A DNA stretch of 64,000 bases from Patescibacteria group bacterium (GTDB lineage: Bacteria > Patescibacteriota > Patescibacteriia > 2-12-FULL-60-25), in the NCBI GenBank assembly GCA_029210915.1, contig JARGGJ010000005.1, positions 1 through 64,000 of the forward strand. The letters run 5' to 3'. Positions 3,534 to 63,452 of this stretch are shown here, in pieces (position 1 is the first letter of the stretch; every line of letters starts with the position of its first letter). A model generated the notes under the pieces. That model saw nothing but the letters and a program-made list of their open reading frames with translations, had not been told where the DNA came from and ran no database searches. Position numbers and translations under genes: made by a program.

Positions 3534-3610
3534 GTCATAACGTCATAAGGTCATAACGGTGGTAATTATGTAACCCCGTTAAGACGTTACGACGTTAAGA
3601 CGTTAAGACC
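3534..3610. repeat. intergenic inverted repeat of a GTCATAAC/GTCTTAAC word
   Basis: The left arm repeats GTCATAACGTCATAAGG; the right arm is the reverse complement built from GTTAAGACGTTACGAC units. Together they could form a long imperfect hairpin between the two copper genes. The same word family recurs at 63377-63452. Confidence 0.8.
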
Positions 3611-16514: not shown

Positions 16515-16760
16515 AAACTTGTAATAACCAATGTCTAAACTTGTAATAATCAATAACCAAGCTCCAATAACCAATAAATAATCAATAATCAATAATCAAT
16601 GACCAAGCTCCAATAACCAATAAATAATCAATAATCAATAATCAATGACCAAGCTCCAATAACCAATAAATAATCAATAATCAAACTTGTAATAACCAAT
16701 CATCAATATAACAATCACCAAATCTAGCACCTGGTATCTAGTACCCGGTACGAGTTTTTG
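16515..16760. repeat. 46-bp tandem repeat of CCAATAACCAATAAATAATC words
   Basis: About two and a half direct copies with a 46-base period begin at GCTCCAATAACCAATAAATA at 16561, 16607 and 16653. Each copy is itself built from CAATAAT/CCAATAA words. The flank to 16760 holds CTGGTATCTAGTACCCGGTA. There is no spacer pattern, so it is not CRISPR. This fills the gene-free stretch 16498-16840. Confidence 0.85.
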
Positions 16761-37705: not shown

Positions 37706-38158
37706 CTTGTACTTAGTCCTAGTACTTAGTCCTAGTCCTAGGGGTGGGGTTAAGTTTAATGGATTTTGATAGGCCGTTTATGATGCAGCCAATTTCGGTG
37801 GTTAATTTATATAATTCTGAAAATTTTTTGTCATCAAAGTAGTTAAAATCTAATCCGAGATAAAGCATACTTCTTACTTCATTGCATGATCCGTTGGATA
37901 TTGAGAGAAAATGTATAAATTCTTTTTCACTTTTTCTACCAAATCCTTCGGCAATATTATTCATGATTGATAAGGAAGCGCGAAGTATTTGATCTTTATA
38001 ATAGTAATCTCGATTTTGTTTTAAAGCGATATATAATATTTTGTTTAGTTCTCTCGCTTTCTGCCAAGCAATAATGTCTTCAAACCTGGATATACTCATA
38101 TTCATTTACTAGGACTAGGACTAAGACTAGGACTAGGACTAAGTACTAGGACTATTAG
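37706..38158. mobile_element. candidate element: four-helix protein gene between inverted word repeats
   Basis: Both ends carry AGTCCTAGTACTTAGTCC and TAGTCCTAG words in inverted orientation; at least 27 bp match perfectly between the left arm (37711-37740) and the right arm. The left arm reaches into the gene and supplies its stop. Solo copies at 25509-25537 and 32409-32436 suggest a dispersed repeat. There is no transposase. Confidence 0.6.
37719..38105 (-). CDS. S23-type four-helix bundle protein
   Basis: A 128-residue protein of the four-helix bundle family known from 23S rRNA intervening sequences (S23/IVP), also related to the bAvd proteins of diversity-generating retroelements. FEDIIAWQKARELNK near residue 8 and SIMNNIAEGFGRKSEKEFIHFL near 47 are the signature. 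Its last residues (TPRTRTKY) and TAG stop are encoded by the flanking CTAGGACTAGGACTAAG repeat. No reverse transcriptase is in the window. It sits between the two transketolase subunits, so it looks inserted. The biochemical role is unknown. Confidence 0.9.
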   Translation of the reverse strand: MNMSISRFEDIIAWQKARELNKILYIALKQNRDYYYKDQILRASLSIMNNIAEGFGRKSEKEFIHFLSISNGSCNEVRSMLYLGLDFNYFDDKKFSELYKLTTEIGCIINGLSKSIKLNPTPRTRTKY

Positions 38159-38162
38159 TCGG

Positions 38163-39044
38163 TTATTGATGTTCGCTGGTAATTTTGCCGTTCAGTGTCC
38201 GTAGTTCGTGCAGTGCGATTTTGGCTTCTTCTTTGTTTGGTGGTTTGCCGTGCCATTCGTATTTATTCTCCATAAAATCCACTCCTTTACCCGGGATTGT
38301 GTGGCAGATAATAACGGTTGGGTTGGCGGCCATGGATTGGGCTTTTTTCATGGCATCTAAAATTTCGCGGATATTATGGCCGTCGACTTCGATAACGAAC
38401 CAGTTAAAGGCTTTGAATTTATCAGCGAGATTTTCGAGAGGCATGATATCTTCCGTGGGGCCATCTATTTGGATGTTGTTGCGATCGACAAAAACGGTTA
38501 ATTCTCTTAGATCCATTTTTCCGGCAAGCATGAAAGCTTCCCAGCACTGGCCTTCGTCCAGTTCGCCGTCGCTCATAAGGCACCAGGTATGATAACTAAC
38601 TTTCGTCGCTCGTTTAACGTCGCTCGTCCCACGTCGATTCATTCGAGATGCTAAAGCCATGCCTATGGCTTGGGAGATGCCTTGGCCAAGGGGGCCTCCG
38701 CAGGTTTCGATGCCGTTATTATAGTGATTGTTGGAGTGGCCTTGGAGAGGGGAGCCGAGTTTGCGCAAAGTTTTTAATTGTTTGTGAGGGATAAAGCCGG
38801 CATGCGCCAATGTTGCATAGAGCACCGGGCAGATGTGAGCATTGCTGAGAACTACGCGATCGCGAGCGGGGTCGTTTTTCTTTTTAGAATCCAGCTTGGC
38901 AATGCCACCCAGGTAGAGTGCTGTAAAAACATCGGCCATGCCAAGCGGGCCGGCGGAGTGCCCGCTGCCTGCAGTTAGAAGCATGTTGATGATGTCTTGG
39001 CGGATTTGATTAGCGATCTTTTCGAGTTGTTTAGTTGTTTTCAT
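38163..39044 (-). CDS. transketolase, N-terminal (thiamine diphosphate-binding) subunit
   Basis: A 293-residue half-transketolase. AGSGHSAGPLGMADVFTALY is near residue 25 and the thiamine diphosphate/Mg motif SDGELDEGQCWEA, closing with the Asn of VDRNNIQID, is near 155-185. It pairs with the 36716-37693 subunit. Between ASRMN and YHTW an extra RRGTSDVKRATKVS segment appears, encoded by a CGTCGCTCG-type repeat (38602-38637) also found in rpiB and in the 56051 gene. A TAAAAT lies about ten bases before the ATG. Confidence 0.93.
   Translation of the reverse strand: MKTTKQLEKIANQIRQDIINMLLTAGSGHSAGPLGMADVFTALYLGGIAKLDSKKKNDPARDRVVLSNAHICPVLYATLAHAGFIPHKQLKTLRKLGSPLQGHSNNHYNNGIETCGGPLGQGISQAIGMALASRMNRRGTSDVKRATKVSYHTWCLMSDGELDEGQCWEAFMLAGKMDLRELTVFVDRNNIQIDGPTEDIMPLENLADKFKAFNWFVIEVDGHNIREILDAMKKAQSMAANPTVIICHTIPGKGVDFMENKYEWHGKPPNKEEAKIALHELRTLNGKITSEHQ
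38602..38637 (-). repeat. in-frame coding repeat (GTSDVKRAT) in transketolase
   Basis: On the coding strand ACGTGGGACGAGCGACG followed by TTAAACGAGCGACG. It is read in the same frame as the copies at 44111-44146 and 56345-56380. Confidence 0.8.
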
Positions 39045-43755: not shown

Positions 43756-43765
43756 AACAATGTAG

Positions 43766-43860
43766 TTTATAAAGTTGAAGGTTTGTAAAGTTTGTAAAGT
43801 TGTTGAACTTGAGTTTCTACTTTACGAACTTTACGAACTTTATAAACTTTATGAACTTTA
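43766..43860. repeat. AAAGTTTGTAAAGTT inverted word repeat
   Basis: GGTTTGTAAAGTTTGTAAAG on the left and ACTTTACGAACTTTATAAAC on the right, able to form a long hairpin between rpiB and rpe. Confidence 0.8.
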
Positions 43861-43861
43861 A

Positions 43862-44302
43862 CTAGTTTAGCTGCTTTATTCGTCTTTTATGCCTAATTGC
43901 TTTAGATGTGGGAGTTTTTAGGAAGACATCTATTAGTTCCAGTGCTGTTTTTAGTTTGGTGTTCCAGCCGGATAGTGTCAAGATATTGATATCATTATGC
44001 TCGCGAGCCAGTTTTACCTCTTTTTTGTCGTAACCTTGAGCAGCGCGGATGCCTTTGTATCTATTTGAAGCTATTGCAGCGCCGACTCCGGAACCGCAGA
44101 TGAATACTGACCTCGTCGCTCGTCCCACGTCGCTCGTCCCTCGTCGAAGGTGTTCAACGAGTGCTTTAGCAACTAAGGGATAGTCGTCGTCTTTTTTGAA
44201 GGTGGGAGTTACGTCGATAATCTCGTGTTTTTTTGCCAGTTCTTTTTTGATCTGTTCTTTGAGTTTAAAACCGGCATGGTCGGCGGCGAGGAAGAGTTTC
44301 AT
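43862..44302 (-). CDS. rpiB: ribose-5-phosphate isomerase B
   Basis: A 146-residue RpiB/LacA-family enzyme interconverting ribose-5-P and ribulose-5-P. LAADHAGFKLK at the N-terminus, ICGSGVGAAIASNRYKGIRAA near residue 69 and EHNDINILTLSG near 101 are diagnostic. Between VEHL and SVFICGSG an extra RRGTSDVGRATR segment, absent from standard RpiB, is encoded by a 36-base CGTCGCTCG repeat. It replaces a short surface turn before the catalytic strand. A TATAGT ends eight bases before the ATG. Confidence 0.93.
   Translation of the reverse strand: MKLFLAADHAGFKLKEQIKKELAKKHEIIDVTPTFKKDDDYPLVAKALVEHLRRGTSDVGRATRSVFICGSGVGAAIASNRYKGIRAAQGYDKKEVKLAREHNDINILTLSGWNTKLKTALELIDVFLKTPTSKAIRHKRRIKQLN
44111..44146 (-). 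repeat. in-frame coding repeat (GTSDVGRAT) in rpiB
   Basis: On the coding strand GGGACGAGCGACGTGGGACG then AGCGACGAGG. It is a tandem of GGACGAGCGACG and shares sequence and frame with 38602-38637 and 56345-56380. Confidence 0.85.
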
Positions 44303-50115: not shown

Positions 50116-50380
50116 TTACCTTGATTACCTTGATTACCTTGATTACCTTGATTTTCAGGATTAAGAGAATTAGCAGGATTAACTAACAAATATCTACCAA
50201 ATATTTACCAAGATACTATTCAACTCGATAAATCTCGCTCATAGCCTTCGGCAAGTTACAAATATCGACCAAACGTTCACTGAACGTTTTTAACGTTTTT
50301 AACGTTATAACGAGTTTAGTAGTTGCTTTGGTAAACATCATTAACTCGTTACGAACGTTAAAAACGTTATGAACGTTACG
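50116..50380. repeat. CCTTGATTACCTTGATTA tandem and AACGTTTTTAACG inverted repeats
   Basis: 50116-50190 holds four TTACCTTGA units and TTTTCAGGATTA. 50271-50380 holds GAACGTTTTTAACG on the left and CGAACGTTAAAAACG on the right, with the shared TAAACATCATTAACTCGTTA core. Together they fill the gene-free stretch. Confidence 0.8.
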
Positions 50381-56050: not shown

Positions 56051-57127
56051 CTACACTTTAATCTTTTTCTCCGGTTTTTTATCTTCCTTATCTTTATCAT
56101 CTTCTTTTTTGCGTTTGCGCCAGATTAGAAAGAAGATGAAAGCGCCGATGCCGGTTAGGATGGCTAAGAGCCAGAGCCAGTTGGGCCAACTGAGCCAGCC
56201 TAAGACTTCTGCGTCTAATTTTTGAGCTTCGTCACCGATGTTGTACATTGATTTGCTCTCGAGAGCAACTGTGCTGGTAGTGTGTTCGTCGTAGATTTCA
56301 TCTGTGCCGGTTGCTACGCCGAGAACGCGACCGTTCTCATCTAATTCGTCGCTCGTCGCACGTCCCACGTCGCTCGTTTTTTCGTCTTCGGTTAGGTCTT
56401 GGATACCCAGAACTTGGCCGGCCGGAGTCTCGGCTTCTATCGGATTGGCAATGTCGACGTCGGTGCGGTTGGGATCGGTTGGGAAAGCGTCATCTTTATC
56501 ATTTACTCCATCGCCATCGGTGTCGTATTTGGTGGGGCTGGATCCTTGCGCGGTATCTTCCCAGTCGAATAAACCATCATTATCGTCATCCGAGTCAACC
56601 GAATCATCTTGGCCGTCGCCATCGGAATCTTGGCTTTTTGTTGGATCTAGAGGGTAATCATCTTCAGTATCGGGGACTCCATCGTTGTCGTCATCCGGGT
56701 CAACCGTATCACCAATGCCATCGTCATCGTTATCATTATCTACAAAGATTTGCACCTCCGCGTAATTATCGCTTAAGTTTGGATCTACAATACTGCCGTC
56801 GAGGGCTACATTTAAACTTAATGTGTATGTGCCCGGGGAAACCGGAGTCCAGGTGAACCAAACTTCTTCGGATGCACCTCCGGAACGAGCAGAGAGGGAT
56901 TTCATGTTTACCAAACTGGCACCGGCTTTGCAGACCGCGGTGGCCTCGGTATCAACCGTGCCCAAGTTGTTTACTGTTCCGTAGAGTTTGACGGTTTGGC
57001 CGACAAGTACAGATGCATCGTTGGCATAGAACCCGCCATCGGGGATGCTGAGATCGTTATCGGCAGCAAGGGCAGTTAGTGGCGCGAATGCCAAACATAA
57101 CGCAAACAACAAATATTTTGGTTTCAT
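56051..57127 (-). CDS. surface protein with CARDB-like domain, calcium-binding repeats and C-terminal anchor
   Basis: A 358-residue exported protein. The signal peptide ends near LAA (residue 22). Residues ~30-125 resemble a CARDB-type beta domain (VLVGQTVKLYGTVNNLGTVD). Residues ~128-230 hold thrombospondin type-3-like Asp-rich calcium repeats (DNDDDGIGDTVDPDDDNDG, DSDGDGQDDSVDSDDDNDG). A linker holds TSDVGRATSDE, encoded by the CGTCGCTCG repeat at 56345-56380. A membrane helix (~313-335) and a Lys/Asp-rich tail end the protein. The ATG at 57127 is chosen for the signal peptide. Likely cell-surface display. Confidence 0.87.
   Translation of the reverse strand: MKPKYLLFALCLAFAPLTALAADNDLSIPDGGFYANDASVLVGQTVKLYGTVNNLGTVDTEATAVCKAGASLVNMKSLSARSGGASEEVWFTWTPVSPGTYTLSLNVALDGSIVDPNLSDNYAEVQIFVDNDNDDDGIGDTVDPDDDNDGVPDTEDDYPLDPTKSQDSDGDGQDDSVDSDDDNDGLFDWEDTAQGSSPTKYDTDGDGVNDKDDAFPTDPNRTDVDIANPIEAETPAGQVLGIQDLTEDEKTSDVGRATSDELDENGRVLGVATGTDEIYDEHTTSTVALESKSMYNIGDEAQKLDAEVLGWLSWPNWLWLLAILTGIGAFIFFLIWRKRKKEDDKDKEDKKPEKKIKV
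56345..56380 (-). repeat. in-frame coding repeat (TSDVGRATSDE) in the surface protein gene
   Basis: On the coding strand ACGAGCGACGTGGGACG then TGCGACGAGCGACG. Same frame as in rpiB and transketolase. Confidence 0.8.
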
Positions 57128-57247
57128 AAGATGAAGGTAGTTTAGCAAAGAAAATGCAAACAGAGAATAGCTGATAATCGATAGCTGATTGCGGATAGCT
57201 GAACACAGAACAAGAATCAGTGGACGGTGGACGGCGAGAGTAGGTGA

Positions 57248-63376: not shown

Positions 63377-63452
63377 GTCTTAACGTCTTAATGTCATAAC
63401 GTACTAAACAATAAACCCCGTTATAACTTTAAGACGTTATGACGTTATGACC
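63377..63452. repeat. GTCTTAACGTCTTAATGTCATAAC inverted word repeat
   Basis: GTCTTAACGTCTTAATGTC on the left and TTAAGACGTTATGACG on the right; same family as 3534-3610, 60 kb away. Confidence 0.8.

Follow-up and report, generated by a model that had tools for sequence, protein, structure and literature searches.

The gene for ribose-5-phosphate isomerase B (rpiB) is found at 43862..44302 on the minus strand of the window, which is the whole stretch of 64,000 nucleotides of Patescibacteria DNA that was analysed. It contains a solo heptamer array at 44111..44146 (minus strand) made of five 7-bp units, CGACGAG GGACGAG CGACGTG GGACGAG CGACGAG. The array is in frame and encodes RRGTSDVGRATR. In the translation of the window gene, RpiB reads ...VEHL-RRGTSDVGRATRS-VFICGSG..., and the insert sits ahead of the ICGSG strand, as a sequence-only reading had reported for the same positions. 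That reading took the unit to be a tandem 12-mer, but the unit is 7 bp, with periods of 7 and 14 found in the window arrays by TRF. Since 7 is not a multiple of 3, the array runs through all three codon phases. The rpiB copy is a tandem array in a single orientation; it is not palindromic, has no gene inside, and gives no folding signal (z -0.2 against shuffles). Structure prediction suggests that the RpiB fold is intact (mean pLDDT 87), with the insert as a low-confidence connector (residues 56-60) between the helix at 41-54 and the strand at 64-69.

Two other genes in the window carry related arrays, both of them already picked out in the sequence-only reading. The gene for the N-terminal half of transketolase (38163..39044, minus strand) has an in-frame heptamer array at 38604..38636 (minus strand), identified by TRF and congener comparison; GGACGAGCGACG is found there at 38618-38629, and the peptide is RRGTSDVKRAT. 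A putative surface protein gene (56051..57148, minus strand) has an in-frame array at 56346..56379 (minus strand; TRF and pattern match) that encodes TSDVGRATSD, and GGACGAGCGACG is present at 56347-56379 with 1 mismatch. Across the window GGACGAGCGACG has 11 matches with at most 2 mismatches, compared to 2.2 expected, and none of 100 shuffles reaches 11. The peptide TSDVGRAT is common to the three genes because they share the same unit order, not because of a rule of frame.

The window also contains a complete element with a gene. A four-helix-bundle gene is located between the two transketolase half-genes at 37719..38105 (minus strand), and it belongs to TIGR02436, the 23S rRNA intervening-sequence protein (IVP). 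Its 3' end has a tandem array at 37709..37741 (minus strand; TAGTCC/TAGTACT, period 13, by TRF), and its 5' end has the inverted counterpart at 38107..38154 (plus strand), where 28 bp match the other arm's reverse complement exactly. A palindromic pair of 9-mer arrays at 43764..43857 has no gene inside and is a probable non-autonomous derivative, and a second such pair (AACGTTTTT), also with no gene inside, is found at 50283..50377; both were detected by TRF. More generally, pairs of 8-9 bp tandem arrays are present at 3534-3609, 43764-43857, 50283-50377, and 63377-63451. Several are clearly inverted and no large gene is found there, and they are probably further gene-free elements with other unit sequences (dialects). 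A long intergenic array at 16545..16750 has the CAATAAC/AATAACC dialect, the same as the flanks of the IVP genes L301 and L302.

The array in rpiB belongs to a large family in this genome (G000). The family core is GACGNNN in tandem 7-bp units. The exact 12-mer has 26 matches genome-wide and its reversed control has none, while GACGNNNGACGNNNGACG has 101 matches and its control none. A census by pattern searches and fetched stretches, counting only runs of three exact GACG units, found 54 distinct GACG arrays in the fetched stretches of the genome. About 30 of the 54 are inside open genes, where gene calls were based on open frames and codon usage. They occur in both orientations and in all codon phases, and by the codon-usage model every frame stays open. 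The sequence-only reading had proposed a genome scan for coding copies reading TSDVGRAT; coding copies are numerous, but there is no preferred peptide frame, and the shared reading frame that holds for rpiB, transketolase, and the surface protein gene does not hold as a rule. A single favoured peptide or frame is therefore ruled out, as the 7-bp units rotate phase and both orientations occur. From knowledge of the protein families, we take the hosts to include uvrD (two arrays), truB, a lysyl-tRNA-synthetase-like gene, rsmI, dnaX, radA, ligA, dinB (two arrays), tsaE, tsaD, mnmA, a pyruvate-phosphate dikinase/ppsA-like gene, metG, phosphomannomutase, a Clp ATPase, polX, glycosyltransferases, transketolase, and rpiB. 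Other dialects in the genome are ATTCGNA, GTACGNN, CAATAAC, TAGTCC, and 9-mers. As for a phage origin, viral contigs were scanned and had 9 scattered matches.

Several individual arrays have additional features. Some GACG arrays (L005, L023, and L133, in truB, tsaE, and metG) contain or adjoin the perfect palindrome CCCTCCTTTCGCGAAAGGAGGG, which reads SLLSRKEGG in tsaE and metG and may be another small repeat lying within the array. In one dinB gene (L020, G000:C44:66778) GACG and GTTCG arrays are side by side, as if arrays attract arrays. A GACG array with the irregular end described below (L019, G000:C30:5512-5530) is about 220 bp before the start of a 23S rRNA match at C30:5751. This match spans model positions 1-2925 within no more than some 1.5 kb, so the gene looks broken or misassembled.

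The same sites were compared in relatives. The congener G003 and nearly all other genera have nothing at the rpiB site. GGACG arrays are found at this site in G000 and G007, an inverted pair of GACG-type arrays in G006, an inverted pair of GTACG arrays in G001, and an ATTCG array in G004. The insert is thus not common to all relatives, since within the genus the site is either empty (G003) or holds a different sequence or length, and the earlier proposal of a dispersed repeat inserted into a housekeeping gene is borne out. The site in the transketolase N-half gene has ATTCG units in G008 and an inverted pair in G006, and it is empty in G003. At the junction of the transketolase N and C halves, G000 has the full element, G006 has an element with the IVP gene deleted, and G007 and G003 have nothing. 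In RadA, two spots in a single linker carry arrays, of several dialects, in G000, G008, G001, G002, G005, and G006. The linker has arrays in other genera as well (G011, G025), while none are found in G003 or G007. In the gene trees, with which the array dialects are discordant, G000 falls beside G004 and G008, yet it shares GGACG with G006 and G007. Close relatives differ in the dialect found at a given site, so besides insertion there is also local conversion at work.

The rpiB insert, itself a solo array, is akin to the inverted array ends of an element that carries an IVP gene. The genome has 15 matches to TIGR02436, nearly all with arrays on both sides and mostly with a dialect of their own for each gene. 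L303 (36 bits) has no array arms and is probably not a true IVP. Inverted tandem arrays flank 85 of the 92 IVP genes tested but none of 86 shifted controls, with arms scored as significant when at most 2 of 200 dinucleotide shuffles did as well. The arms are present in 14 of 14 genes from this genome, 18 of 18 from the genus, 25 of 29 from the class, and 28 of 31 from other phyla, where an array pattern had served to find the genomes outside the class. The best arm period is 7 or 14 in 60 of the 85. At least eight other phyla have such arms: Omnitrophota, Planctomycetes, Bacteroidota, Chloroflexota, Acidobacteria, Gemmatimonadota, Armatimonadota, and Cyanobacteria; for example, the cyanobacterium Geitlerinema has an IVP gene between CAGTGAG arrays. 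The IVP gene at C2:45917-46225 has GACG arms, the same family as the rpiB insert, and another IVP gene (L300) matches PDB 2gsc. A second, smaller class of IVP genes (L299, L334, L343, L347, L352, L337) is bounded by non-tandem inverted sequences about 20 bp long that share a AGCGCGCAA-like motif. At G000:C8:20355-21158 two IVP genes of different subtypes (L291 and L299) adjoin each other and have a flank stretch in common. The culturable Aequorivita has long GACGAAC/GACGAGG arrays and 10-12 IVP genes per genome (L177, L186, L195, L209, L218). No IVP gene was found in 30 23S loci examined in relatives.

Genomes with IVP genes are also rich in heptamer arrays. In unselected 20-kb stretches of relatives, arrays of period 7 or 14 occur at 1.29 per 10 kb in 11 genomes with IVP genes, a figure that takes in our own window, and at 0.07 per 10 kb in 11 genomes lacking them (p=2e-4), a difference of about 18-fold. 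When this genome is left out, the density in genomes with IVP genes is 1.20 per 10 kb (p=4e-4). A separate set of genomes, chosen only by an array 18-mer, gave a similar picture: IVP genes are present in 11 of the 14 genomes with the 18-mer in at least 5 units, compared to 19 of the 50 with 3-4 units (Fisher p=0.008). There are exceptions in both directions. G005 has 7 IVP genes and almost no arrays in the sample, and in G002, an assembly that is 84% complete, no IVP was detected, yet there is a heptamer array in radA. G001, G006, and G007 have many GACG-type or related arrays, and none of their IVP genes is GACG-ended. These three genomes rule out a strict rule by which each dispersed dialect has its own IVP partner.

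Within this genome the GACG family grades from a full element down to solo arrays. The full GACG-ended element is 435 bp long (C2:45847-46282). A 144-bp derivative at C28:8727-8871 has the IVP gene internally deleted but retains its MKIEKYE and KFIQSIS gene ends. Shorter still are GACG palindromes of 71 bp (C25:8780-8850) and 101 bp (C22:66415-66515), and then come the solo arrays. The C28 derivative has a strong folding signal against shuffles (z -6.8), while those of the short palindromes are only mild (z -1.2 and -1.5). An irregular 29-bp end, GACGTRGGACGATTGGGACGNGCGACG, with a unit that is out of step, is found at 10 distinct places in the genome. Two of these are the full element and the deleted one, and others are in dnaX, tsaD, and mnmA. 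Its presence at ten places is hard to explain by independent slippage. Irregular ends are common to several loci, so copying between loci is needed; tandem short units describe the form of the arrays and not their origin. No target-site duplication was definable, nor was any movement seen.

Several known systems resemble these elements in part. The 23S rRNA insert of Coxiella has a 28-bp terminal inverted repeat, and three GACAGAT heptamers stand in tandem ahead of its S23p gene, in which one strain has a 176-bp deletion (PMC4990558). The intervening sequences (IVS) of Coxiella, Leptospira, and Brucella share with the elements described here the gene family, a similar size (428 nt compared to about 435 bp), the terminal inverted repeats, the tandem heptamers beside the gene, and the occurrence of gene-deleted variants. 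However, they are known as single inserts in rRNA helices, excised by RNase III, while here the elements are dispersed and have solo-array descendants. The copies in this genome are in or between protein genes rather than in rRNA, and therefore they are the same type of element but not 23S IVS. RAYTs are tyrosine (Y1) transposases whose genes are flanked by inverted REPs, with dispersed palindromic copies that lack the gene. The RAYT/REPIN system is similar in having a gene between inverted short repeats and short, gene-free palindromic copies, but IVP is a four-helix bundle with no nuclease domain, and the ends here are tandem heptamer arrays instead of REP hairpins. Heptamer arrays (TAACTGA) are dispersed in Beggiatoaceae, mostly in intergenic regions and some in genes, and are described with no parent element (PMC4679880). 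These and the cyanobacterial STRR repeats are like the present arrays in unit length and distribution; in the papers found, however, they are linked to no parent element or protein, while the arrays here match the ends of IVP elements. The Avd protein of diversity-generating retroelements has a four-helix-bundle fold related to IVP/PF05635 (PMC10053308), but this genome has no match to RVT_1 (reverse transcriptase), while control genomes do give matches. In a CRISPR mining study the IVP family is named only in the legend of a figure about what is associated with CRISPR adaptation modules (PMC10910872). In the open-licence literature no paper was found that joins IVP genes with dispersed arrays.

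The insert in rpiB is probably a solo end copy of a small dispersed IVP element, with copying driven in trans by IVP. The dispersal of the arrays and their link to IVP are well supported, and we infer that IVP itself drives mobility. The complete element of about 430 bp consists of inverted tandem arrays of 7-9 bp units around one four-helix-bundle (IVP/Avd-like) gene. Internal deletion would remove the gene, giving first palindromes and later solo arrays, which disperse over the genome. Inside genes, the surviving copies would be those in a tolerant loop that leave the reading frame open. IVP would act in trans and probably binds the array hairpin, as DNA or RNA, and once bound it may help template switching or strand annealing by the replication or repair enzymes of the host. 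Slippage and exchange between arrays would then alter the dialect in each lineage. No transposase can be recognised in the element and no RVT_1 is detectable in the genome, which favours an accessory role for IVP. Against this explanation are the exceptions in G001, G002, G005, G006, and G007, the differing dialects at single sites, and the fact that IVP has no known catalytic activity.

The main rival explanation, which is possible but doubtful, is that IVP is a passenger: the palindromic heptamer arrays would spread by themselves or be features of the host, and IVP genes would settle in their loops and adopt the local dialect. It would account for the separate dialect of each IVP gene and for the dispersed GACG and related arrays in G001, G006, and G007 that have no IVP partner, and known 23S inserts do replace the tetraloops of rRNA hairpins (PMC4990558). 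Against it, arrays are about 18-fold rarer in genomes free of IVP, IVP-deleted derivatives retain the arms and both gene ends, and the diagnostic irregular end is common to the full element and the dispersed copies. The recurrence of that end at ten places also argues against ordinary short tandem repeats, which polymerase slippage would make anew at each of many sites without any mobile element. Most of the genomes surveyed do have heptamers as their commonest long simple repeats (reviewed in PMC4679880), and the units vary and array lengths differ between relatives. Slippage is nevertheless already unlikely, with little probability left to it, given one core at 54 sites in a single genome that is nearly absent from most other genera, and inverted array pairs that flank IVP genes in many phyla.

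The two remaining possibilities have still less in their favour. Several congeners use the same codon site, as would be expected of an ancestral variable loop, of a peptide with a function in RpiB and in the other host proteins, or of contingency loci that switch frame. However, the sequences at the site differ in dialect and orientation, the RpiB loop is predicted to be disordered, and about 30 unrelated and mostly essential genes are hit in both orientations and all phases with every frame open, making this very improbable. The sequence-only reading had compared the insert to Rickettsia palindromic elements, which are also short, palindromic, and in frame in housekeeping genes. The analogy stands, but membership does not, as the rpiB array is a single-orientation tandem. 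The arrays differ from those elements in lineage and form, and apparently in sequence: a solo array can do without a palindrome, and a parent that carries a gene was found. With tandem heptamer ends, non-palindromic solo forms, and linkage to IVP genes instead of a transposase, it is scarcely credible that the insert belongs among the true Rickettsia palindromic elements or is a classic MITE moved by an ordinary transposase.

An IVP element that leaves solo end copies would join two long-standing puzzles, the heptanucleotide tandem repeats of bacteria and the role of the 23S intervening-sequence protein. The four-helix-bundle gene has until now been known mainly from bacterial rRNA inserts. 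On the genomic side, the association with dispersed arrays supports an old suggestion by Ralph and McClelland (cited in PMC4990558), namely that the IVS gene is a mobility component. There appears to be an even chance that minimal mobile elements, with only a non-enzymatic four-helix-bundle gene between inverted heptamer arrays, are widespread and are the source of many unexplained heptanucleotide repeats in bacteria. If so, essential genes would constantly receive gene-free copies in frame, with the ribosomal IVS as one special landing site. The genome studied here is a reduced one, and the recent in-frame repeat insertions in about 30 of its proteins, most of them essential, are a source of new protein sequence.
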